The notes under the pieces: generated by a model | Database searches by the model: none | What the model saw: only the letters and a program-made list of their open reading frames with translations | What the model was told of the DNA's origin: nothing | DNA from: Syntrophobacterales bacterium | Lineage (GTDB): Bacteria; Desulfobacterota; Syntrophia; Syntrophales; UBA5619 | Reading direction: 5' to 3' | Assembly: GCA_019429105.1 (NCBI GenBank) | Contig: JAHYJE010000026.1 | Coordinates: 1 to 48,753, forward strand | DNA length: 48,753 nt | Made by a program: the position numbers and the translations under genes | Shown here: piece after piece, positions 1 to 12,213 of the stretch | How the letters are laid out: each line of letters starts with the position of its first letter | Position numbering within the stretch: position 1 is the stretch's first letter

Positions 1-127
1 AATTGCAAAACTCTCACATTCTGTCATTCCCGCAATGATTTTAAGCGGGAATCTGGTTCTAACTGCTTGAAAAACCGTATTCCCGATAGAAGCATTCGGG
101 AATGACAAATAGTTTTGCAATTGGCTC
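1..127. repeat. Palindromic repeat, copy 1 (MITE-like)
   Basis: The element begins with AATTGCAAAACTC at the window edge and ends with AGTTTTGCAATTGGCTC at 111-127, so its ends are inverted repeats. Inside are two hairpins: TCATTCCCG (24-32) with CGGGAAT (46-52), and ATTCCCG (79-85) with CGGGAATGAC (97-106). The same layout occurs at 12074-12205. No transposase is encoded, so it would have to be a non-autonomous element or an extragenic palindrome. The left end may extend beyond the window. The 3' end of the HD-GYP reading frame lies inside it. Confidence 0.8.
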
Positions 128-797
128 CTTTTACCCGAAATAATCTGAGACAAGCATCTGCGACGGCATTGTCGTAAAATATTCCCCTGTTATTCTCGAT
201 CTCCGCCAAAGCTGCATCGATGCCCAAGGCGGGACGATAGGGCCTATGTGAGGCCATGGCTTCCACTACGTCGGCAACAGAAAGAATACGGGCCTCGATG
301 AGTATTTCCTCTCCTTTCAGCTTTCCCGGATAGCCGGAGCCGTCCATCCGCTCATGGTGCTGGAGGACAATCTCCGCCAGCGGCCAGGGAGATTCCACGT
401 CTTTCAACAGCTCGAATCCTCTTTGGGCATGTTCCTTAATCATGGCAAATTCGATGTCTGTAAGTTTTGTCGGCTTGGACAATATCTCGGCAGGTATGGA
501 TATCTTCCCAATATCATGAATGGAACCGGCCATGCGGATGCCTTGAATTTTCTCTTCGGGTAATCCCATTTCCGTGGCGATGGCACGGGCCAGATCCGCA
601 GACCGAATCTGGTGGCCCGCCGTATAGGGATCTCTTGCTTCCACGGCCGACACCATGACCTGTATGGTCGTATTCACTGCTTCCTGAGACTTTCGAGGGT
701 AATTTCGAGATGTTTCTCTGCTTTTTTGCGCTCGGTAATGTCGCTGATAAAATTTAACGTTGCCGGATTCTTCCATAAAGAAAATCATATCGATCAC
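24..797 (-). CDS. HD-GYP domain protein (3' part of a decayed signalling gene)
   Basis: The centre of this 257-residue frame is a complete HD-GYP domain, the family that hydrolyses cyclic di-GMP. Visible motifs are HDIGKISIP, HHERMDGSGYPGKLKG and the following EARILSVADV segment. The N-terminal part is damaged. The frame opens with GTG directly after a TAG that interrupts the upstream substrate-binding domain. About 23 residues before the HD-GYP domain are read out of frame: the alternative frame gives ISDITERKKAEKHLEI, a typical PAS/HD-GYP linker. This implies one extra base near 749-752 and one missing base near 680-685. The last ~34 codons are supplied by the repeat at 1-127. The HD-GYP fold might still be made, but the original receptor cannot be. 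Best read as a pseudogene remnant together with 798-1121. Confidence 0.7.
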   Translation of the reverse strand: MIDMIFFMEESGNVKFYQRHYRAQKSRETSRNYPRKSQEAVNTTIQVMVSAVEARDPYTAGHQIRSADLARAIATEMGLPEEKIQGIRMAGSIHDIGKISIPAEILSKPTKLTDIEFAMIKEHAQRGFELLKDVESPWPLAEIVLQHHERMDGSGYPGKLKGEEILIEARILSVADVVEAMASHRPYRPALGIDAALAEIENNRGIFYDNAVADACLRLFRVKGANCKTICHSRMLLSGIRFFKQLEPDSRLKSLRE

Positions 798-1121
798 CTA
801 GGCATTTCCTTCGGTCATCGTCTTTTGGGCCTTATCCCAGTCCATCCCCCGCAGGTCTGCTTTGCTTCCCGTTTTTTCTTCCCAGAGACGCCATTCATCC
901 ACCAGAATGCCCTGAAGATGACCTTTCTCATCGCGAAAAATAAAAGGCGGATAATTGTCATCCGAGACGACCGTAATTTCTTTCAGCGAGGTGGTATTCG
1001 CAGCCATGCCGGCGATGGCCGGAAAATAAAAAATAAGAAACAGGAGTGCAAAAAGGAGGTAATGAGCGGCCTGTGTTTTTTGACTTTTATAAGAGGGATT
1101 GTGTTTCTTGACAATGGACAT
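798..1121 (-). pseudogene. N-terminal fragment of periplasmic solute-binding (SBP_bac_3) sensor
   Basis: The 107 residues start with a basic stretch and a hydrophobic signal or anchor segment (about residues 21-40). They continue as the first lobe of a family 3 extracellular solute-binding domain, with VVSDDNYPPFIFRDEKG followed by GMDWDKAQKTMTEGNA. The frame stops at TAG (798-800), where family members normally continue GNAD-VID. The next codons do read VIDMIFF in the same frame, so this is an in-frame nonsense change. The rest of the binding domain is missing: the sequence jumps to the end of a PAS-like linker and then the HD-GYP domain. The original gene was probably an SBP-PAS-HD-GYP receptor. 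I treat 24-1121 as one degraded gene. Confidence 0.7.
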
Positions 1122-1558
1122 CGCTGATGCATCTCGATCATTGAATGAATGGTTTCGTCATCCGAACGGTTGGCGCCCTGTCAGATGCCCTTTCCGGAAC
1201 CGATCAAAAACTGCAATTAAGTTTGTGCTCCGTTTGCTGCTTGGTTTCCCGGCAGTACCACAAGATTTCATGTTTAATCAAGCCCCTTCAAGTTTAAAAC
1301 CTCGTTTTTTGGCTGGAGTTTATTTTGGAGTCACCCCGCTTTCATCACACACTTAAACAGACTTTTATCAGTGAATCAGAATCCTTATCGATTCTCCTCC
1401 CATGAACTGGGCCAGTTTATGGATTGTCGTAGATATGCCTAAACGATATTGCTGCTTGTGTACAGAAACTTATGACGTGACTTTCGGAATTATCCTTCAA
1501 AATCTCCGCCGTCTAGGCCAAAGACTGATTAACGTTCAAATGGCAAACACCACGCAGA
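1122..1558. other. Intergenic spacer without recognised gene
   Basis: This stretch of about 440 bases lies between the decayed receptor gene and the tRNA terminator. Short open frames exist on both strands, but none has a family-like sequence or a convincing ribosome binding site. I see no RNA gene or repeat in it. It would hold the promoter of the minus-strand receptor gene, but I could not pick a clear one. Confidence 0.5.
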
Positions 1559-1604
1559 GCAAAAAAACAAAGGGATTAACAGATTCAATCTCTGCAAATC
1601 CCTG
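1559..1604 (-). terminator. Rho-independent terminator of tRNA-Leu
   Basis: On the minus strand, just past the tRNA CCA end, AGGGATT and CAGA pair with TCTG and AATCCCT around a short loop (plus-strand arms 1571-1577 and 1597-1603). A T-rich run follows. A second T-run lies on the other side, so the hairpin could work in both directions. Confidence 0.8.
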
Positions 1605-1611
1605 ATTTTTT

Positions 1612-1699
1612 TGGTGCCTAGGGAGGGGGTCGAACCCTCACAGCGACAAGCGCCGAGGGATTTTAAGTCCCTTGCGTCTACCAGTTCCGCCACCCAGGC
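1612..1699 (-). tRNA. tRNA-Leu (anticodon UAA)
   Basis: Read on the minus strand, the acceptor stem GCCTGGG pairs with CCTAGGC, followed by discriminator A and an encoded CCA (1612-1614). The anticodon stem-loop is AGGGA-CTTAAAA-TCCCT, giving anticodon TAA. The T-arm contains GGTTCGACCCC. The long variable arm after the anticodon stem is that of a class II tRNA, as expected for leucine. Length is 88 bases with CCA and 85 without. A strong promoter and a terminator flank it, so it appears to be a single-gene unit. Confidence 0.97.
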
Positions 1700-1718
1700 A
1701 ATAACTTGAAGGGTGTTG

Positions 1719-1747
1719 TCTATATTCTTTCTTGAAAATGGTGTCAA
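1719..1747 (-). promoter_or_regulatory. Sigma70-type promoter of tRNA-Leu
   Basis: On the minus strand a perfect TTGACA (-35, 1742-1747) is followed after exactly 17 bases by TATAGA (-10, 1719-1724). The -10 ends about 19 bases before the tRNA 5' end at 1699, leaving room for a short leader. Confidence 0.8.
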
Positions 1748-1822
1748 GAATTTCATTCTCAATGCATTTTGATTGATTTTTCCGCTTGCCTGTGCCAAAG
1801 GCAGCGGCGGGAGGCGCTTTTT

Positions 1823-3142
1823 ATGACAATCGTTGATACAATTATTCTGGGAGGACGGGTTCTCCCGATGGACGATATGAACACCGTTCTGACCGAGGGA
1901 GCGGTTGCGATAGAGGGCGAAAATATCGTCGCCGTTGCCTCGGTTGCGGAGATAAAAAGCCGTTTTACGGGACATTTGGAGATTGACGCCCGGGATTCGC
2001 TGATCATGCCGGGGCTGATAAACTCTCACACCCACGCCGCCATGACCTGCTTCCGCGGAATCGCCGACGACATGGAGTTGATGGAATGGTTGAACCGCTA
2101 CATCTTCCCGGCGGAGGCGAGAAATGTTGATCCGGAGCTGGCCTATCGGGGAAGCATGCTGGCCTGTGCGGAAATGATCCGTTCCGGGACGACAACATTT
2201 TGCGATATGTACATATTCGAGGATGAGACGGCCCGTGCAGCCAAGGAAGCGGGCGTGCGCTGTCTGGTCGGAGAGGTTCTTTTCGATTTTCCTTCGCCGA
2301 ATTTTCAGACGCCGGCAGAAGGGTTGTCATACACGCGGAAATTACTTGAGAAATGGGCAGGCGATTCACTGGTGCAGATCGTTGTCGAACCGCACGCACT
2401 TTACACCTGCTCCCCTTCCCTGCTCAAGGATGCCAAGGCGCTGGCCGATGAATTCAGAGCGCCTTATGCAACGCATCTGCTTGAAAATAAAATGGAAGCT
2501 AATCAACTCCAGGAGAAATTCGGCAAACCGGCAATGAAATTTCTCGAAGAGATCGGTTTTCTGAGCGAGCGTTTTACCGCCTTTCACTGTGTGGCAATGA
2601 CCGACGAAGATATCCGGATTTTTGCAGATCATGGTTGCCGGGCGGTGCATAATCCGGAAAGCAACATGAAGCTGGCCTCCGGCATCGCCCCTGTATCGGC
2701 GATGCGGAAACAGGGAATCCCTGTTGGCCTGGGTACTGACGGCTGCGCAAGCAACAACGATCTGAATATGTTCGGGGAAATGGATACAGCGGCAAAGCTG
2801 GCCAAGGTCGCCTCTCTTGATCCAACCGCTCTGCCGGCGCTCGACGTGATAAGAATGGCAACCTGCGAAGGCGCCCGCGCCCTGGGTTTGGAGCATGAAA
2901 CCGGCTCGCTGGAGGTCGGTAAAAAGGCTGACATCATTATAATCGGGCTCAAAGAGCCTCACCTTACCCCGCTCTACAATGAATATTCACAGATCGTCTA
3001 TGCGGCGGCAGGCGCCGATGTGGATACGGTATTCATTAACGGCAAGATGGTCATGCAGAATAGAAAATTGCTGACAATCGACGAGAAGGAGGCGATGGAG
3101 CGGGTAAGAGAAATCGCGGTACGGGTCAGAAAAAGTCTGTAA
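1823..3142 (+). CDS. mtaD: 5-methylthioadenosine/S-adenosylhomocysteine deaminase
   Basis: This is a 440-residue amidohydrolase of the MTA/SAH deaminase (TRZ/ATZ) family. It deaminates methylthioadenosine or S-adenosylhomocysteine to the inosine forms, in the methionine-salvage branch. Metal ligands are visible: the HTH of NSHTHAAMTCFRG, the His of EPHALYTCS, the His of FHCVAMTDED and the Asp of GLGTDGCASNN. The C-terminus has the usual composite beta-sandwich part (LEVGKKADIIII, VFINGKMV). I chose the ATG at 1823 because GGGAGG sits about 8 bases upstream; an upstream in-frame start at 1769 would add 18 poorly conserved residues. Related amidohydrolases act on guanine or chlorinated triazines, but motif spacing and length favour MTA/SAH deaminase. 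It stands alone between a tRNA and a convergent gene. Confidence 0.9.
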   Translation: MTIVDTIILGGRVLPMDDMNTVLTEGAVAIEGENIVAVASVAEIKSRFTGHLEIDARDSLIMPGLINSHTHAAMTCFRGIADDMELMEWLNRYIFPAEARNVDPELAYRGSMLACAEMIRSGTTTFCDMYIFEDETARAAKEAGVRCLVGEVLFDFPSPNFQTPAEGLSYTRKLLEKWAGDSLVQIVVEPHALYTCSPSLLKDAKALADEFRAPYATHLLENKMEANQLQEKFGKPAMKFLEEIGFLSERFTAFHCVAMTDEDIRIFADHGCRAVHNPESNMKLASGIAPVSAMRKQGIPVGLGTDGCASNNDLNMFGEMDTAAKLAKVASLDPTALPALDVIRMATCEGARALGLEHETGSLEVGKKADIIIIGLKEPHLTPLYNEYSQIVYAAAGADVDTVFINGKMVMQNRKLLTIDEKEAMERVREIAVRVRKSL

Positions 3143-3173
3143 ACCGTAGGACCCGTCAGGTTTTCCATCACCG

Positions 3174-5876
3174 CTAAACGAGCGGACGCCCGCCGTTGAG
3201 CTTTTCGTAAATGGCTATATATTCGGCGATCATGTGTCCGAGGCTGTAGCGCTCCCGCGCATATCGCATAATTGTCACGATATGCCGCCTGCGCACTTCC
3301 GCTGGATGCCGGTGAAATGCGACGCATTTTTCCAGACCGTGCCACAATCCGCCGGCATCATAATCATGGAAAAGAAAGCCGTTGCCGAAATCAAACGAAG
3401 TTCCGTCTTCCTGAAGCCGCAATTCATGTATTTTGTCATGGTAGCCCCCGGTGTCGCGGTTAGTGGCTGTCGCTCCGAAGATGTTTCCAACCTGGTCAAT
3501 CTGTCCACACGGCTCATACAACGACGCCCCGAATACATCATGTGCGGCGGCATAACCCAGAAGGGACAAGGCCTCATCAAAGGGTTGATAAGCGATCCGT
3601 CCTCCGGAAGCGCAGGCAATTCCCCCTAAAATATCCACATGCGTCCGATCGGCGCCGATTCCGTCGCCAACAAAGGCAAATTGCACATCTTGATGCGTTT
3701 CGGCAAATTTCTGAACAATCTGTTCGATAAGCTCCACCCCTTTTTGAAAGGCATCCAGGCGGGAAGGCCAGTAAAGGAGGATCGCCTCCGGGTCAACTCT
3801 CAATCCCATTCTCCGTTGGAATTCGAGCATATTTTCCCGTTTGGCCTCTATTACATCGTCGTCAGGGCCATATTTTCGGACCAGCGCTTCGCAATGTTCG
3901 GGATACATAAGCGAGGAAGGGGCATTGATGATAGAACGTACGACGCCATGCCGGAACTTCTCCTTAACCTCGTTGCGGACGCTTTGCGGCACCAGCTCCC
4001 TGTCTAAAAAATAATCCTCCACGACCTCCTGCAAAAACCGCTCGCCCACGAAATTGATCATCGTCGCGTTTTTTATTGCCGTTGCCTGGGCGTCTATACA
4101 GGCCTTTCCGTCCTTCTCGGAGCGGTACATCAGGTCACCGATGCGATCCATATCGATTCCCTCAAAAAGATCAAATGGAATGAGCGAAGTAAAGATGTTA
4201 TGCACAGTGTGCAGAACGGGCAGGCCGGTTGCTTTGGCATAGGCAACTATTGCGCCTCCCGCCATCCAGTCGTGCGTGTGGAGGAGCAGGCGGTTGCCGC
4301 TCTGGGCGCGTACGGTTTTTATTATGTTCTTTACCGTTTCCTTCTGGAATTCTGCCGCCGTGGCAATCGGATCGCCGGAATAGGCGCTCAGGTTATCGGC
4401 AAAGAGCGAGGAACTGATCAAGTGGATATTTTCCGGATCAATTCGATAGCGCGCCTCCCGCCATTGAACCTCGCTCATCTGTAATTCGCGCTGAAATCTC
4501 TTTTTGAGATTCAGGATGGCAAGGTGAACCTCCAAACCCCGTTCGGTAAGCCCTTCGCACAAGGCGGAAACAACCTCGCCCTGGCCGCCGCTTTTCCCGG
4601 AGATGAAACGGGCGAGGTTTCCCATATCCTCCGGCAGTCTGCCAGTTTCCGGAGAGATAATCAGTATTGCAGTTTTTTCCCGTTTCTTGATCACATCAAA
4701 GCGCTTTACGGCAACCTCAAGTTTATCGATCTTCCTGGTGAGAATATGGGTGGGCTGAGCTATCGAACCGCCGTAAGGGTTGAAGTAGGCATGGACGGCA
4801 TGGTCCTCCCCTACCCGCTCATGCAGAAAATAAACGTGATCCGAGGTTGTCAAATGCCGCCAACGCTTGAGAAGATCTCCCCCCGCTCTTTTGGCGTGAT
4901 TCTCCAGCCTTTCAATATCCTTAAAGAGTTCATACTGAGTCGGGTTTCCGAGCCAGCCGAAGGTGTCGCGGCCGGCATCCGCCCAAGAGGAGGTGGAAAG
5001 TCCGTGGATGTCGACAATCGGACAGGAAACATCATGAAATTTAACAGCAATTTCGGTAGGAGTCGCGGGCACGATATTGGAATAATCCTTGAGCGCCTCA
5101 GGCAGACCCTTCCAGAAATCAAAAATCCCGGACTCCTCCCAGATATGCTCGCCAATATGTTCAAAATCATATCCGAGCAGCACCACTTCGCCGTCAATCA
5201 GGGACAGGTATCGCGCGTACTGAGCAGGGGTGAGCGGATTGTGAGGAAACCGGAAGGCAATATCGTCGCTCAATTCCCGATTGCGCGGAATAACGATCAT
5301 ATTGGTATTTTGAGCGCGGAAAACCGTATTGGGAGAGATCACTTCACCATCGCTTCGGTACATGTCATCGCGCTTTTCGCACAGCATCGCCTTGTAGCCC
5401 ATCTCGGCCACGACCCCGGCGATGTCGTTGTTGTACATGAGTTCGGTATTGCGAAACGAGGTCGGAAAAATACCGAAGACCCTTTTTATCATCTCCCGGT
5501 GCAGCAGGATCTGCGCCAGAAACTCCTTTTTTTTCGGGTCTTCGAACAGACTGGTCAGTGAGTGGTAATAGGTCTCATCGAGTATTTCCACCTGGCTTCC
5601 GCTGGCGCCCGCATCCCTTAATTCCTGAAGCGCGCCGACCACATCCGGACGGTACTGTTCGGCCTGCTCAAGGAAGGTTCCCGACAACCCCAGGGCGATC
5701 TTGAACGAGGGATTTTCTTTAATAAGCTGCACGAACATCCGTACGGCGGGAAGATAGCACTTGTCGGCTACCTTGATGAATACCTCCCGGTTCTTCTCCT
5801 CCCAGAGGAATTTATCGCCGTCGGGATGGAGACGAAAAGGCTGGTGAAGCTGAAAATAAAAAGCGACAAGCGGCAT
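3174..5876 (-). CDS. GH57 glycoside hydrolase fused to starch-synthase-like glycosyltransferase
   Basis: This 900-residue protein has two domains. Residues 1 to about 390 are a family 57 glycoside hydrolase. The HQPF motif is at 11-14, the likely nucleophile Glu97 is in QVEILDETYYH, and the likely acid Asp237 is in GYDFEHIGEH. Residues from about 403 to 890 are a GT5/GT4-type glucosyltransferase with SGKSGGQGEVV (428-431, the K-x-G-G nucleotide-sugar motif), HTHDWMAGG and a C-terminal SLYEPCGQIDQ. The hydrolase probably cleaves or transfers alpha-1,4-glucans, while the other domain resembles glycogen synthase. The protein has no signal peptide and is likely cytosolic. The start is well supported: GGGAGG lies about 7 bases before the ATG, and a promoter lies upstream. 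It belongs functionally with the glucan genes at 41402-47724, though it is not adjacent to them. Confidence 0.88.
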   Translation of the reverse strand: MPLVAFYFQLHQPFRLHPDGDKFLWEEKNREVFIKVADKCYLPAVRMFVQLIKENPSFKIALGLSGTFLEQAEQYRPDVVGALQELRDAGASGSQVEILDETYYHSLTSLFEDPKKKEFLAQILLHREMIKRVFGIFPTSFRNTELMYNNDIAGVVAEMGYKAMLCEKRDDMYRSDGEVISPNTVFRAQNTNMIVIPRNRELSDDIAFRFPHNPLTPAQYARYLSLIDGEVVLLGYDFEHIGEHIWEESGIFDFWKGLPEALKDYSNIVPATPTEIAVKFHDVSCPIVDIHGLSTSSWADAGRDTFGWLGNPTQYELFKDIERLENHAKRAGGDLLKRWRHLTTSDHVYFLHERVGEDHAVHAYFNPYGGSIAQPTHILTRKIDKLEVAVKRFDVIKKREKTAILIISPETGRLPEDMGNLARFISGKSGGQGEVVSALCEGLTERGLEVHLAILNLKKRFQRELQMSEVQWREARYRIDPENIHLISSSLFADNLSAYSGDPIATAAEFQKETVKNIIKTVRAQSGNRLLLHTHDWMAGGAIVAYAKATGLPVLHTVHNIFTSLIPFDLFEGIDMDRIGDLMYRSEKDGKACIDAQATAIKNATMINFVGERFLQEVVEDYFLDRELVPQSVRNEVKEKFRHGVVRSIINAPSSLMYPEHCEALVRKYGPDDDVIEAKRENMLEFQRRMGLRVDPEAILLYWPSRLDAFQKGVELIEQIVQKFAETHQDVQFAFVGDGIGADRTHVDILGGIACASGGRIAYQPFDEALSLLGYAAAHDVFGASLYEPCGQIDQVGNIFGATATNRDTGGYHDKIHELRLQEDGTSFDFGNGFLFHDYDAGGLWHGLEKCVAFHRHPAEVRRRHIVTIMRYARERYSLGHMIAEYIAIYEKLNGGRPLV

Positions 5877-5924
5877 GTCAAGCCTCCCCGAGAATTATGA
5901 CGATTGAATAGAGGACTGTTTAGA

Positions 5925-5953
5925 CTTATAGAAGAATCTCCGGTTAAAATCAA
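5925..5953 (-). promoter_or_regulatory. Candidate promoter of the GH57-GT gene
   Basis: On the minus strand TTGATT (5948-5953) and TATAAG (5925-5930) are separated by 17 bases. They lie about 50 bases upstream of the start codon at 5876. Confidence 0.6.
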
Positions 5954-6067
5954 CAGATAAGAAACATGAATCCCGGCATGTTTACTGTTGTCTCCAGCAA
6001 GCTTGTTGTGTTATGGGGGCCGTGCCAATTTCATCTGAATTGTTCAGGCGAAAATCAAGGAGAAATT

Positions 6068-6886
6068 ATGCAGACAAAAAGCGATTATCTGATGGAAAAC
6101 AGTGAAGAGGCCCTGCGCCTCAGTCAGAAAACTGATCCGGACGCGGTGCGCAAACAGGCCGCCTGGTGCGGCATCAAGGCCGGTCTGCGGGTACTCGATT
6201 TTGGCTGCGGGCCGGGAGTGACAACGGATATTTTCCGCGAAATGGTCCAGCCGGGAGGAAGTGTTGTCGGCGTGGATATTTCCGAGGAGCGCATTGCCGG
6301 CGCCATCAGCAGTTATGGTGGAAAGTCGGGAATCGCTTTTGTCCTCCGCGACCTCAGACAACCTATACGGGATATCGGTACATTTGATATAATTTGGGTA
6401 CGCTTCGTACTTGAATATTTTCGCAAAGAAAGCAAAGCGATCGTTGAAAATTTAAAATCTCTGCTTAACCCAGGCGGATGGCTTTGCCTGCTCGATCTCG
6501 ATTGCAACTGTCTCAATCATTACGAACTTCCCGAGCCGATGCAAGACATTTTACCCAAACTGATGGCGCTGCTCGATGAAAAATACAATTTCGACACCTT
6601 CTCCGGGCGAAAGCTCTATTCTTATCTTTTTGACGGGCAATATGAAAACTTACAGGTGGAATTGATGGCACATCACCTCATTTACGGTAAGGCCAAGGAA
6701 ACGGATGTATTCAACTGGACAAAAAAGATTGAAGTCACCGCGGATCGTCTGCAACCCCTTTTCAGGGCTTATCCGGGCGGAATTGAACAATTTAAAGATG
6801 ATTTCAGAAGATTTTTTGTCGATCCCCGGCGTTTTACCTATACTTCGCTTATCATGTGCAAAGGGATGAAACCCTACAGAAATTAA
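6068..6886 (+). CDS. Class I SAM-dependent methyltransferase
   Basis: The 272-residue protein has the Rossmann methyltransferase signature. Motif I is VLDFGCGPGVTTDIF, followed by GVDISEERI (acidic residue for the ribose) and then FDIIWVRFVLEYF and LNPGGWLCLLDLD in the later strands. The substrate cannot be read from the sequence; the general fold is that of small-molecule methyltransferases of the UbiE/Methyltransf_11-25 type. The ATG at 6068 follows AAGGAGAA at good spacing. An upstream in-frame ATG at 5966 would add 34 residues unlike the family. The stop codon overlaps the stop of the converging kinase gene in the palindrome TTAA (6883-6886), so there is no room for a separate terminator between them. 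Confidence 0.85.
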   Translation: MQTKSDYLMENSEEALRLSQKTDPDAVRKQAAWCGIKAGLRVLDFGCGPGVTTDIFREMVQPGGSVVGVDISEERIAGAISSYGGKSGIAFVLRDLRQPIRDIGTFDIIWVRFVLEYFRKESKAIVENLKSLLNPGGWLCLLDLDCNCLNHYELPEPMQDILPKLMALLDEKYNFDTFSGRKLYSYLFDGQYENLQVELMAHHLIYGKAKETDVFNWTKKIEVTADRLQPLFRAYPGGIEQFKDDFRRFFVDPRRFTYTSLIMCKGMKPYRN

Positions 6887-9744
6887 ACTCGAACATCAAG
6901 CAATTCTCTGATTTTTTGATTCAGTTCATCGATTCTGTATGGCTTGCGAATAAACGCAGTTGCTCCTGAATCCATAATTTCTTTCTTTTTTTTGTCCTCA
7001 ATAAACCCGCTTGCCATGATCACCTTCATATCCGGATATGTTTTCAGCACCTCCTGGAGGCACTTGCCTCCCCCCATTCCGGGCATCATCACATCCATAA
7101 TAATCAGCTCTATTTCCCCTCGTTTCTCCAGCAGCACATCCAGCGCTTCTTCCCCGGAGGAAGCGGTAAGAATGTCGTACCCGGCAAGGGAAAGGAGTTC
7201 CTGTCCTGTTTCAAGCAGGGAAGTCTCATCATCAACGAGGAGAATTGTCTCTCCTCCCCCCATCTTCTCGCTAGAAAGATGATTGTCTTCTTTTTCATCA
7301 GGCGCAACGGCAGCTTCAATGACTGGCAGATAAAATTCAAAAGTCGTCCCCTTGCCTGTTTCACTGTGACAGAAGATATAGCCGCCGTGGTTTTTGATGA
7401 CTCCGTAAACAACGGCGAGCCCAATCCCCGTTCCTTTGCCTACCGCCTTGGTGGTATAAAAGGGTTCAAAAATGTGTTCGAGCACATTTGGTTCGATCCC
7501 GGAACCGGTGTCAGAAACACGCGAAACGACATAACTTCCGGGGATCACCCTTACCGAAGAAGATTCAAAAGGTTTTTTCAGATCAACATTTGCCGTTTCG
7601 ATTTTCAGCGTTCCGCCCCCGGGCATGGCATCTTTCGCGTTTACCGCAAGATTGAGGATTACCTGTCCGATCTGCCCCGCATCGCCATTGACAGTCCGCA
7701 GGTTGTCGGCAAGATCGTAGTCTATATTGATATTCTTTGGAAAAGTGCCAAACAGAAGTTCTGCACTATTTTTGATCTCCCTGTTCAAATCGAGAGGACG
7801 CAAACTGATTTCGATCTTTCTGCCGAAAATCATCATCTGCCTGACAAGATCGGCGCCCCGGCCTGTTAATTCATGAATGCTGCGCAGATACTTCCAATCC
7901 GCGTCAGTTTCCTGCTTCCCGCGCTTCAAAATTTCGGCGTAAGAACCGATAGCCTGCAATATGTTGTTAAAATCATGGGCAATTCCCCCGGTAAGCTTGC
8001 CGATGGCATTCATTTTCGAGGTATGGCGGAGCTGCTCCTCAAGGCGGCGCTGTTCGGTGACATCCTTAAGAGTGCCGGTTATTCCCGTAATTTCTCCTGT
8101 TACATTAATGTTGGACGCGGCACTGATCGTGAACAACCGCTCCTCGCCGCCCCTTGTCAAGAGCTTTCCGTTAAAATATTTTATGGTTTCATGGCCATGG
8201 ATGATGTTTTTAAAAAGTTCAGTAAAGATGCCGACATCCTCTTTGCGGATAATGTCGGCAAACGGCTTTCCTACAATATCCTCCGGGGAATAGCGCAGGC
8301 TTTCCTTCACCGCCGGGTTGACGTAGGTAATCACAGCTCTGTTGTCAACCGTATAGATGATATCCGGGGAGTTTTCACTCAGGGCGCGGAAACGTTCCTC
8401 GCTTTCCTTGAGTTTGCGGTGACTCCTGGCGTTATTGAGACTGATCGCTATTTGCGTTGCGACCCCCATCAGCATGTTGACACCGCTTTGTCCGAGCGGC
8501 CGGCTTGACTTGTAATTGTCAACCGCGAGAACCCCCTCCGAAATGCCCTCATAGACGATGGGAACGCAGATAAACGAACTTGCGCCCAGTTTTTCGGCAA
8601 ATTCAATTCCCCGCGGGGAGAAGTTATGTTTGATGTCATTTATGTCGCTGACAAGGATAGGGGTTTGTTTGACGAAGGAGGCTACGAACGGCCCCCGGGA
8701 ATCGGGGTTGTTGAGATGGAAGTTCGTATTGCGCATAACGTCAGTCAGTTCAGGCGCGTATCCGTATCCGGTCGCATAGACGAGATTCGTCCTGGCTGAG
8801 TCGGCAAGCATGATCATGCCCCGGTCGAAGTTTAGTCTTTTTCCCAGGGTTTCTCCAATCACTTCGAGTAGCCTGTCGATATCGAGGGTGTTTGATACAG
8901 CTTGACCAATCTCCTGAACGAGCAAGGAATTTTCATAACTCTCCGTTATCTGGTCGAGAAATCGGTTGGCGGTGTCCCCCTGGCGTTCTATTTTTTCATA
9001 GAGCTCCCTTTTTTCAGTGATCTGGCTGTAATAGGATAAACCAACCAGAATTCCGGCGAGGATGACGGCGCATTCGGCAAATTGCAGCGGGGAGTAGAGA
9101 AAACCGCAGACGATAGCGAGCGCTATCGCAGGAATGGCCAGATAATTCCTGGCCCGCCTCAGTTTAAGATAAGCGGGCTCCTCCCAGCTTATTGTATAAA
9201 CACAACTGTTTCCTCCTTTGTGGACGCAGACGGGATGCTCTACCAAAGGCAGTTTCCCGGTGAACAGCTTGGCAATAGCCTCAAAACTGCCGACCCTGTT
9301 ATCGCATTGGTAGAGTTTGTCTTTCACGCCGTTCAAAATTTTTACTACTATCTCCACCTTGTTGCGACCTGTTTTTTCCACTGCGTAAGAAGTTGCCCTG
9401 TTCATGTAAGCGGCAACCTTGGGGACTCTCAGATAGGCTTGCGTCGGGGTAATGAACCCGAGCAGAAACTGCCGGATTATACCAAAAGACTGGGAGGTCG
9501 ACATGTACCTCCCCGCCTTCCTGAACAGCGAGGGGTCGTTGGCCTGCAGCATTAGGGCGTCATGAAAGGAATCCACCTGCCTCTGTGTCAGCCAGTGGCC
9601 TTCATCCTCGAGTTCATAGGACTCAATTCCGGAATCGGAGATCAGCTTCTGGATATCAACCTCTGGTCGGAATTTAATTAGATATTCGAGATAAGTGTAA
9701 ATAATCCTACTGTTATAAAGCCGTGGTTCACCCATACCGACCAT
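6883..9744 (-). CDS. Hybrid sensor histidine kinase (TM-GAF-PAS-HisKA-HATPase-REC)
   Basis: The 953-residue protein is a membrane-anchored hybrid kinase. Residues 1-190 form a sensor region ending in HPVCVHKGGNSCVYTISW, reminiscent of V4R or heme-NO-associated sensor modules. Two membrane helices follow at about 201-240. A GAF domain lies at ~285-440 and a PAS domain at ~447-570. The HisKA phosphoacceptor is His590 in GGIAHDFNN. The ATPase domain has NLAVNAKDA and GTGIGLAVV. A C-terminal receiver carries Asp884 in IIMDVMMPGMGG. It most likely autophosphorylates and passes phosphate to its own receiver; the downstream partner is unknown. The start follows AAGGGA. It lies 12 bases after the PilZ gene and is probably co-transcribed with it. 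Confidence 0.92.
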   Translation of the reverse strand: MVGMGEPRLYNSRIIYTYLEYLIKFRPEVDIQKLISDSGIESYELEDEGHWLTQRQVDSFHDALMLQANDPSLFRKAGRYMSTSQSFGIIRQFLLGFITPTQAYLRVPKVAAYMNRATSYAVEKTGRNKVEIVVKILNGVKDKLYQCDNRVGSFEAIAKLFTGKLPLVEHPVCVHKGGNSCVYTISWEEPAYLKLRRARNYLAIPAIALAIVCGFLYSPLQFAECAVILAGILVGLSYYSQITEKRELYEKIERQGDTANRFLDQITESYENSLLVQEIGQAVSNTLDIDRLLEVIGETLGKRLNFDRGMIMLADSARTNLVYATGYGYAPELTDVMRNTNFHLNNPDSRGPFVASFVKQTPILVSDINDIKHNFSPRGIEFAEKLGASSFICVPIVYEGISEGVLAVDNYKSSRPLGQSGVNMLMGVATQIAISLNNARSHRKLKESEERFRALSENSPDIIYTVDNRAVITYVNPAVKESLRYSPEDIVGKPFADIIRKEDVGIFTELFKNIIHGHETIKYFNGKLLTRGGEERLFTISAASNINVTGEITGITGTLKDVTEQRRLEEQLRHTSKMNAIGKLTGGIAHDFNNILQAIGSYAEILKRGKQETDADWKYLRSIHELTGRGADLVRQMMIFGRKIEISLRPLDLNREIKNSAELLFGTFPKNINIDYDLADNLRTVNGDAGQIGQVILNLAVNAKDAMPGGGTLKIETANVDLKKPFESSSVRVIPGSYVVSRVSDTGSGIEPNVLEHIFEPFYTTKAVGKGTGIGLAVVYGVIKNHGGYIFCHSETGKGTTFEFYLPVIEAAVAPDEKEDNHLSSEKMGGGETILLVDDETSLLETGQELLSLAGYDILTASSGEEALDVLLEKRGEIELIIMDVMMPGMGGGKCLQEVLKTYPDMKVIMASGFIEDKKKKEIMDSGATAFIRKPYRIDELNQKIRELLDVRV

Positions 9745-9756
9745 ACTTTCCCTTCA

Positions 9757-11859
9757 TTACAGCCTTATTCTGAATTTACGACCAAGATATTCGATAAATT
9801 CGTTCCCATATTGCATATCAAGTATCCACAAGACGTACTCTTTAGTATGCAAGCCTAAATTGTTTTTATAAGCGTATTCTGCCGGATAAATCATCAACGA
9901 TAGGGCTTCATCAGGTTTAATATTTCTGATTTGTGATACAGCGGCAAAAATTATTTTGGGGTTAACATTTTCGTCCGCAACAAAAATTTTTAGTCCATTC
10001 AAGAGATTCGACAAGTTTAATCCCATATCCGATTTTTCGTCAATGATAAAAGCTTTGGGGGCGTTTATATGGTACAAAATATACATTTTCCATCCGCGCG
10101 TAAACCCGGATACCGAAAAAGTTTCCTCAAGAGATGGAGATTCTGTGGTTTTTAGACGTTTAACGATGGAGGGAAACAGACCGCCTGAATTATTCCGGTT
10201 AAACTGCTGAAAATCGAAAGAATCACAATCATCGCATTCTTTCAGAAACCAGTCAGAGGGAAGTTCCCAAAGAGTTTTCCCAACCGGGTATGTCATGTAA
10301 GCAAACCGGTTAACAGAGCAATGCCGGAAATTGCCGTGATAATCGGCAAACCCGCCGAATATTTTCTCGGGAAATTTGTTGCCTGGACGAAAATACGTCA
10401 TGACAAAGTCCATATTTGCCGACGGCAAATGGCTAACATCATTCAAATAATATATCATCTGTTTCAACACTGCCAGACCTATCGGTCTTCCTCCCATCGG
10501 CCGAGCGGCCAAGTGGTGAATCATCCAGGTCCTTTCGTATGCCCTCAGCATGGATATATGTCCGTAAATATGTCCGTTTTTCTGGTAGGTAAAATAACTG
10601 GCGATATCCGGAGTCTCTTCATAAAGCCTTTTGTAGATATCCTTAAACTCATCCTTAAAGGTTTGAATTAATGTATATTTTTGAGGGTAAATAAAATCGG
10701 TATCGAAAAAGAATTCCCATAGTTCATCCAAGCTTACCTTATTCAACATGCCTTCGTCAGCGCTATTGGCGTTATTCAAAATCTGAAAAAGCTTTCTATA
10801 GTTTGTCAGATCCATATCAAGAATGGCTATTCCGAAACGAACGCCATCGCTTTCAGTGCTGCGATAGATAACCTGAACCTTGCAGCGTATATCCAGAATG
10901 CCGGCATAAGAAATTGACATTTGGGGAATGATCATGCCTGTAAACAGGACAATCTCCGAAGATTGGTCGAATAGGGAAAAACCGGATGTGGATACATCGA
11001 AAATTGGATGTTGGATTGTTTTCTTTGTAAAGGGATGCTCAAAAATCGCATGAAGGGGCGGGGAACCTTGCCTTCGGGGAGTTCGCAGGGCTTTCGGGCT
11101 GAATCTCTGGATCATGTTATCAATGATTGAGAAAACTATTTCCCTGTCTGCACCCTCCTGTTTTTCGTATAGTGACTTACAATTGCCTGAATAAAAAATG
11201 TCTTTCCCTTCGTACAAACGGATCTGCGACGGAACCGTGCTGTTGAACCAACGAAACGAAGAAGGAGGGGCAGCACAGACACGGACGCGAAATGCATTGG
11301 GGGTAAAATCTATCAATGAACCGGAAGCTTGGAAACCGTTTTGCCACAAATCTGCCTTGACGCCCTTACTTATGAAACGTGGATACAGCCTGTCGCTTAT
11401 GAGAAAACTGGCCTCGGGCAATGCTATTGATAGCCCCTGCTCCAGAGCCTCAACTCTTTCAACTGGGACAAGAATAACTGACTGGTCATAAGAAACAACA
11501 AGATAGCTAAATTTATACTGGTCGAAATTAGATAAAGTCAAAGTATTCTGACTCCACCTGAATACCAAAATCTCCCCTAAACAAGCTTCCGAAAACAGTT
11601 TGACAAGGATTTCATCCTGGAAAGATGGATGGCTAATCATCAGATTAAGATGTTCACCCTTGAAATGTTTGTAGTTGAGAATATTAGTGAGCTTTTTCTG
11701 ATCGATTTTTACCGCTGTTGATATAGCTTTTAGCAGCTCATTGTGTTTGAATAACCATGGTTGCAACTCTTCTTTTTCGCCAATATTGCCATCCACGTTA
11801 TCTTTTTTAATGTCAGTCATCATCTTCTCACTATTGTGATGCTTGTTGATTTTCCGCAT
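9757..11859 (-). CDS. PilZ domain protein with acyltransferase-like C-terminal region
   Basis: In this 700-residue protein the middle part shows a PilZ cyclic-di-GMP site: R259-TPR-R263 (RxxxR) followed by DVSTSG at 288-293 (DxSxxG). An earlier segment, SLIDFTPNAFRV (~181-192), looks like a second, degenerate PilZ-like barrel. The C-terminal ~300 residues contain YERTWMIHHLAARPMGG and later MDFVMTYFRPGN, suggestive of a GNAT-type acyltransferase fold; I cannot name a substrate. No signal peptide or membrane helix is obvious. The gene precedes the hybrid kinase by 12 bases, which suggests one transcript and a shared signalling pathway. An in-frame ATG about 12 residues into the frame could be the real start. 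Confidence 0.75.
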   Translation of the reverse strand: MRKINKHHNSEKMMTDIKKDNVDGNIGEKEELQPWLFKHNELLKAISTAVKIDQKKLTNILNYKHFKGEHLNLMISHPSFQDEILVKLFSEACLGEILVFRWSQNTLTLSNFDQYKFSYLVVSYDQSVILVPVERVEALEQGLSIALPEASFLISDRLYPRFISKGVKADLWQNGFQASGSLIDFTPNAFRVRVCAAPPSSFRWFNSTVPSQIRLYEGKDIFYSGNCKSLYEKQEGADREIVFSIIDNMIQRFSPKALRTPRRQGSPPLHAIFEHPFTKKTIQHPIFDVSTSGFSLFDQSSEIVLFTGMIIPQMSISYAGILDIRCKVQVIYRSTESDGVRFGIAILDMDLTNYRKLFQILNNANSADEGMLNKVSLDELWEFFFDTDFIYPQKYTLIQTFKDEFKDIYKRLYEETPDIASYFTYQKNGHIYGHISMLRAYERTWMIHHLAARPMGGRPIGLAVLKQMIYYLNDVSHLPSANMDFVMTYFRPGNKFPEKIFGGFADYHGNFRHCSVNRFAYMTYPVGKTLWELPSDWFLKECDDCDSFDFQQFNRNNSGGLFPSIVKRLKTTESPSLEETFSVSGFTRGWKMYILYHINAPKAFIIDEKSDMGLNLSNLLNGLKIFVADENVNPKIIFAAVSQIRNIKPDEALSLMIYPAEYAYKNNLGLHTKEYVLWILDMQYGNEFIEYLGRKFRIRL

Positions 11860-11886
11860 ATAGAAACTCGTTAGATCGTTTCGGGT

Positions 11887-12073
11887 TTATAAAGGGTGTC
11901 CCGATCCTTTGCAAGTGAAAATTTGCTTTATCCATGAGCGGACAACCTTGCCATCTGCAAGGGGAATGAAACCGCGCTGGGCGAAAGGTTGCTTTAAACA
12001 TAAATCGGCTTTGAGTTTCTTGTCAGAAACAGGTATGAGATCGTTGCGAAAAGGATCAACCGATAAAAGGAAT
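11887..12073 (-). pseudogene. Possible gene fragment cut by repeat copy 2
   Basis: An open minus-strand frame reads from the repeat into about 60 residues of protein-like composition (DLIPVSDKKLKADL, then QPFAQRGFIPLADGKVV) and stops at 11887. Its first 17 residues come from the repeat, so no native start is left. I do not recognise the family. It could be the 3' end of a gene whose 5' part was lost when the repeat arrived, or a chance open frame. Confidence 0.3.
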
Positions 12074-12205
12074 GAGGTAATTGCAAAACTCCGTGTCATG
12101 CCCGAGTGCTTTTGTCGGGCATCCATGATTTCAAATGGTTAAAAAATTGATTCCCGCCCAGAAGCGTTGCGGGAATGACAGCGTTGGGAGTTTTGCAATT
12201 GGCTC
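12074..12205. repeat. Palindromic repeat, copy 2 (MITE-like)
   Basis: The element runs from GAGGTAATTGCAAAACT (12074-12090) to AGTTTTGCAATTGGCTC (12189-12205). These ends are inverted repeats matching at 15 of 17 positions. The internal hairpins are TCATGCCCG (12096-12104) with CGGGCAT (12116-12122), and ATTCCCG (12150-12156) with CGGGAATGAC (12170-12179). Compared with copy 1, the first hairpin carries a changed base pair on both arms. The element ends just before the hrpA start region. Confidence 0.85.
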
Positions 12206-12213
12206 GGAATGGA

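Follow-up and report, generated by a model that had tools for sequence, protein, structure and literature searches.

Short palindromic and miniature mobile elements

The miniature transposons (MITEs) of bacterial insertion sequences, such as NEMIS, ERIC, RUP and Nezha, are short, non-coding elements of high copy number, which hold terminal inverted repeats (TIRs), produce target duplications and share their ends with a partner insertion sequence (IS). Other short repeats have been described as REPs. Those tagged with CGTC or GTAG (PMC3733652) are short palindromic hairpins, paired in opposite orientations, that in several species also lie inside genes, where they encode 20-30 residues. The same survey mentions CGTC elements that have no dedicated transposase, as well as REPs lying within repair genes. 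Insertion in frame into protein-coding genes is characteristic of the Rickettsia palindromic elements (RPEs; cited in PMC3733652), and very short mobile hairpin-forming DNA is represented by the mitochondrial GC clusters and repetitive hairpin elements (PMC4478555, PMC2800124).

The window analyzed in this work is the whole of contig C26 (48,753 nucleotides) from a draft genome of 3.1 Mb in 95 contigs, which is Syntrophaceae-like and related to Syntrophus MAGs. Two palindromes of this window are copies of an ordinary non-coding transposon (MITE) family, present in about 90-120 copies in the genome. Contrary to NEMIS, ERIC, RUP and Nezha, the hairpins of this MITE, which constitutes its own sequence family, host an inserted 21-nt unit. 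This unit is also found outside the MITE, both in other palindromes and in frame in genes. It is probable that the MITE has been moved by a DDE transposase and that its hairpins host a second mobile unit, of 21 nt, which is recognized as a folded strand.

The unit lies in frame in genes, like a Rickettsia-type palindromic element (in ispD, rpiB, rimI, uvrC, DUF1015 and others), but it is not a long palindrome of at least 20 residues. It comprises 21 nt with a 4-bp stem, it appears mainly after start codons, and it encodes 7 residues per copy, in contrast to the RPEs and intragenic REPs. It differs from the mitochondrial hairpin elements in its location in a bacterial chromosome, its fixed length of 21 nt, its G^AA site and its tandem arrays. 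Unlike the tagged REPs, the MITE hairpins mostly show TGTC, and the unit lacks either tag. Nothing on the sequences of the unit, or on a short in-frame repeat of such a kind, was found by full-text searches in an open-licence library. MITEs, REPs and in-frame palindromes are already known. We rate the MITE as a newly seen member of its class and the unit as a variant of REP-like elements, there being a fair chance that the latter is more than this.

A MITE family and its partner insertion sequence

A first-pass annotation had noticed a pair of related elements at positions 1-127 and 12074-12205, each of them with inverted ends and containing two hairpins, and their likeness is indeed far beyond chance. 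Both copies, which are inverted relative to each other, correspond to the insert-free form, one or two 21-nt inserts being present in most copies of the family. Their features are the following:

1-127, minus strand: MITE copy 1, subfamily A, insert-free 132-bp class, with 5 bp absent at the contig start
26-52, no strand: hairpin ATTCCCGC/GCGGGAAT of copy 1, homologous to 12150-12176, with an empty 21-nt-unit site at 49^50 (GCGGG^AATC)
79-103, no strand: hairpin ATTCCCG/CGGGAAT of copy 1, homologous to 12098-12122, with an empty 21-nt-unit site at 96^97
111-127, minus strand: terminal inverted repeat AGTTTTGCAATTGGCTC of copy 1
12069-12073, plus strand: target duplication GGAAT, left of copy 2
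12074-12205, plus strand: MITE copy 2, complete, subfamily C, insert-free 132-bp class
12074-12090, plus strand: terminal inverted repeat GAGGTAATTGCAAAACT of copy 2
12098-12122, no strand: hairpin ATGCCCG/CGGGCAT of copy 2, carrying the compensatory pair, with an empty 21-nt-unit site at 12104^12105
12150-12176, no strand: hairpin ATTCCCGC/GCGGGAAT of copy 2, with an empty 21-nt-unit site at 12152^12153
12189-12205, minus strand: terminal inverted repeat AGTTTTGCAATTGGCTC of copy 2
12206-12210, plus strand: target duplication GGAAT, right of copy 2

Comparison with the family reveals that copy 1, truncated by the contig start, is without 5 bp (GAGNN). An Rfam scan of the window matched a tRNA alone.

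A single element used as query gave 77 BLAST matches in its own genome, and the 17-bp end motif GAGNNAATTGCAAAACT gave 170 exact matches, versus none for the reversed control. A total of 92 copies with 17-bp inverted ends were resolved, a few of these entries being overlapping readings of one copy, and around 27 more are cut at contig ends, as would be expected of a short-read assembly that breaks in a repeat. Among the 88 copies with both flanks, 63 exhibit a perfect 4-bp target duplication directly outside GAG/CTC (about 0.3 would be expected), and six further copies, including copy 2 of the window (GGAAT), exhibit a 5-bp duplication. The consensus of the target is AAC-NNNN-GTT. The MITE is a 132-bp non-autonomous element whose interior consists of two REP-like hairpins facing each other. 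At one locus of the same genome (L083:350-582, in contig C21), one copy is nested in or abuts another, forming a 233-nt composite.

An insertion sequence of 1,510 bp with ends matching those of the MITE and a TGTT target duplication is found in a relative (genome G004, L379:6-1515), and pieces of this type of element appear in another (G005). It encodes a protein of 365 aa that matches DUF772 (PF05598) and DDE_Tnp_1 (PF01609). TIRs and 4-bp duplications are common to this element and to the DDE insertion sequences of the IS5/IS1182 type, but its transposase matched the NCBIfam models for IS1182 and IS5 below cut-off, and no named IS family reaches the cut-off. Neither an autonomous copy nor the IS transposase was found in the assembled genome of the window, where contigs that read as N (small ones such as C87 and C89, for example) could hide this transposase or small collapsed repeats.

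These data agree with the earlier prediction of a mobile palindrome with target duplications and a transposase with matching ends. The additional proposal that this transposase recognizes hairpins is not supported for the MITE, since linear TIRs and a DDE transposase characterize the matching element and the 4-bp target duplications are perfect in 63/88 copies. As a DDE transposase is found together with the same ends in the insertion sequence of a relative, the mobility of the MITE needs no hairpin-recognizing enzyme. The MITE is probably mobilized in double-stranded form, as in ordinary transposition, by the DDE enzyme of an insertion sequence similar to IS5/IS1182, and the transposase identified in the relative would have moved the copies described here.

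A 21-nt unit in hairpins and genes

The size classes of the MITE (132, 153 and 174) are separated by steps of exactly 21 nt, and the difference is a unit of this length, which may occupy hairpin 1, hairpin 2 or the two together. Backgrounds A and B show all four insert states and C shows three, and the insert-free copies of the three backgrounds represent empty sites. The sequence of the unit is AAAXCGNAGX'TTAATGTTCAT, also written AAAXCGNAGX'TTAATGTTCA[TC] (the orientation used here). At up to 2 mismatches, 252 sites were detected in the genome of the window, versus none for the reversed control, and 225 and 156 unit sites were counted in two species of the genus. Since many of these copies hitch-hike in repeats, there have been fewer insertion events than copies. 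Distinct arrays contain one unit (155), two (25) or three (5).

Beyond the genome of the window, the unit is abundant in the only other species of this genus that was examined. It is sparse in a few genera related to this one, and most of the order lacks it. In a scan of 84,980 species, it appeared mainly in MAGs labelled Syntrophus, Syntrophaceae or Deltaproteobacteria, and the scattered single hits in other taxa look like chance. Viral carriers were also considered and rejected, as the four matches were all chance-like and without the flank signature. With respect to replication, 60 versus 39 units favor the G-rich strand, a bias confounded by gene direction.

Several other arrangements of the unit have been observed. 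Three tandem copies near 708-728 of L067, on the minus strand, all carry the T-A stem variant (AAATCG..GATT), which suggests tandem growth from one copy. Arrays of the unit in the genome of the window often have a separate palindrome family (GGACGCGAC..GCGCGTCCCTCC) at their border (L297, L319, L168 and similar loci). An IS-like terminus ending in TTGACAACGCTACCA, with a variable flank, holds the unit approximately 30 bp inside (L185:91-111, L199, L219, L267, L272, L274, L277). This terminus, which often ends contigs in a Syntrophaceae MAG and carries the unit in several Syntrophaceae-type MAGs, could be a carrier of the unit between genomes; no transposase for it could be read in the latter MAGs.

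Insertion of the unit is recurrent and precise and occurs after the G of G^AA, which can be read as a 21-nt unit without duplication or as 19 nt plus a 2-bp AA duplication. Very lenient clustering yielded at least 44 flank families, with a G on the left in 34/44 and AA on the right in 37/44. The sites comprise REP-like palindromes (CCGG^AATCC, GCGGG^AATCC), start codons (ATG^AAA), and a few positions within genes. The MITE hairpins are probably among the landing sites of this second, much smaller mobile unit. Single units and tandem series of 2-3 insert behind the G, in genes as well as in REP hairpins.

In ispD, rpiB, rimI, skp, uvrC, DUF1015 and other genes, whose products are supported by Pfam/NCBIfam, the unit is in frame, often directly after the start codon. 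Its sense frame is open (KAKLNVH, 7 residues per unit) and its length of 21 nt is a multiple of three, which allows insertions in a linker or behind a start codon to survive. In IspD, RpiB, the IOR gamma subunit and the NifX-type protein, profile matches start directly behind the residues that the unit encodes; in OmpH/Skp and RimI they start further on. In UvrC the 7 residues are located between two domains. A PstS-like protein of another relative (G003) holds a reverse-oriented unit in its signal peptide, in which the frame-stopping TGA has been lost.

Empty sites are found in relatives. Whereas iorG and rpiB hold one and two units, respectively, in G001, they hold none in its sister species G000, the genome of the window; uvrC and gfo hold one and two in G000 and none in other genera; the nifX orthologs of relatives lack exactly the unit; and ispD has two units in G000 versus one in G001. 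At the start codon of the G001 gfo gene (L359), decayed units are observed where G000 has two intact ones, so that this insertion may predate the split of the species.

A spread of the unit by gene conversion or recombination between repeats, together with local tandem duplication and no mobility of its own, would be compatible with an insert 2 that is identical in all MITE backgrounds, with the occurrence of the four insert states in both A and B, as recombination between copies would give, and with the tandem arrays of 2-3 units. However, ispD, rpiB, rimI, skp, uvrC, iorG and nifX have no flanking homology to the repeats, and the empty sites of relatives are precise. For iorG and rpiB, the gain of a unit by a gene without other flanking homology is nearly demonstrated. 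Recombination between repeats accounts for some of the MITE pattern but not for the single genes, and as a complete explanation it is unlikely.

Folding of the MITE hairpins and of the unit

In the first-pass annotation, a stem change compensated on both arms was taken as a sign that the folded form of the palindromes is under selection, unless other copies broke pairing as often as they kept it. Because the two copies are inverted relative to each other, the hairpins compared there (26-52 with 12098-12122) were not homologous. The compensatory change itself is real in the homologous hairpins 79-103 and 12098-12122 (T-A in copy 1, G-C in copy 2), and this single change separates subfamily C from A and B. 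Among the 18 private stem changes within subfamilies, 16 break pairing, 2 keep it by a one-sided wobble, and 0 compensate, so that, by the criterion which that annotation itself had set, selection on the fold is unsupported for the recent MITE copies. Substitutions in the stems are about half as frequent as at other positions (18/1680 versus 84/3811, Fisher p 0.003), which may be due to weak constraint or gene conversion.

This lower rate, the two REP-like hairpins with their inverted pairing, and the RAYT genes of the genome would be expected if the MITE hairpins were selected, enzyme-recognized structures similar to those of REP/RAYT systems, the TIRs being secondary. Nevertheless, both the target duplications and the ends of the IS are as expected for a DDE transposase, and stem changes of recent date disrupt pairing. 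The GTAG tag is absent from MITE and unit, and almost all MITE copies carry TGTC instead of CGTC, with CGTC present in one aberrant copy (L076:409-582). Such an origin is very improbable.

For the nested 21-nt unit, which had escaped the first-pass annotation, compensatory change has good support. Bases 2-5 of the unit pair with bases 9-12 around a G-N-A loop, forming a 4-bp stem in which the inner C-G pair and the G and A of the loop are nearly invariant, while N varies. The C-GNA-G of the unit is also the loop of d(GCGAAGC), a DNA minihairpin of unusual stability, although the fold energies predicted for the unit are weak (-0.3 to -1.7 kcal/mol). For X/X', nearly all units show G-C, A-T or T-A, and they do so without pairing being a condition of the search. 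Among 26 distinct units, it is G-C in 14, A-T in 7, T-A in 3, G-T in 1 and broken in 1, a covariation that was matched by 0/500 shuffles and lies above every slid register. Codon constraint does not explain it, since the changes at X and X' alter both encoded residues in the observed frame. Of the four stem pairs, a single one shows much variation, so the case for a structure depends on it.

This covarying stem of 4 bp, with its GNA loop, points to the recognition of a folded single strand at some step. The unit may move through such a strand by means of an HUH-type or other nuclease, and the likeliest agent, named here only tentatively, might be a single-strand nuclease (HUH/IS200-RAYT-like) or an equivalent enzyme. 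It could even be, although we would not lean that way, that the 21-nt minihairpin is mobile in its own right, copied via a folded single strand by a dedicated enzyme, in which case no smaller mobile DNA inserted in frame would have been described in bacteria, and its safe sites would be start codons and REP hairpins.

RAYT was evaluated as the partner of the unit. Four matches to RAYT-type genes are found in the genome of the window, and at the two of these loci that were read, no unit flanks the RAYT/Y1 gene. Moreover, RAYT-type genes occur in 72/100 relatives regardless of the presence of the unit. This candidate was rejected, given that the gene is present but neither linked to the unit at the two loci read nor correlated with it.

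That the unit is instead an immobile functional site kept by selection, either a regulatory hairpin or a translation-start element, as its strong sequence conservation and frequent place right after start codons might suggest, is hardly credible, because its presence varies between orthologs in one genus, it also lies within palindromes, a signal peptide and the uvrC linker, and its copy number in ispD orthologs is 2 versus 1.

Meaning of the unit for its hosts

Short palindromic repeats with no known transposase, such as the CGTC REPs, the Rickettsia elements and the mitochondrial hairpins, represent a long-standing puzzle. The 21-nt unit comes with filled sites and their exact empty counterparts, has a defined target and a covarying stem, and can be compared between closely related genomes, which makes its mobility directly testable. 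It further illustrates how essential proteins acquire 7-21 additional residues at the N-terminus.
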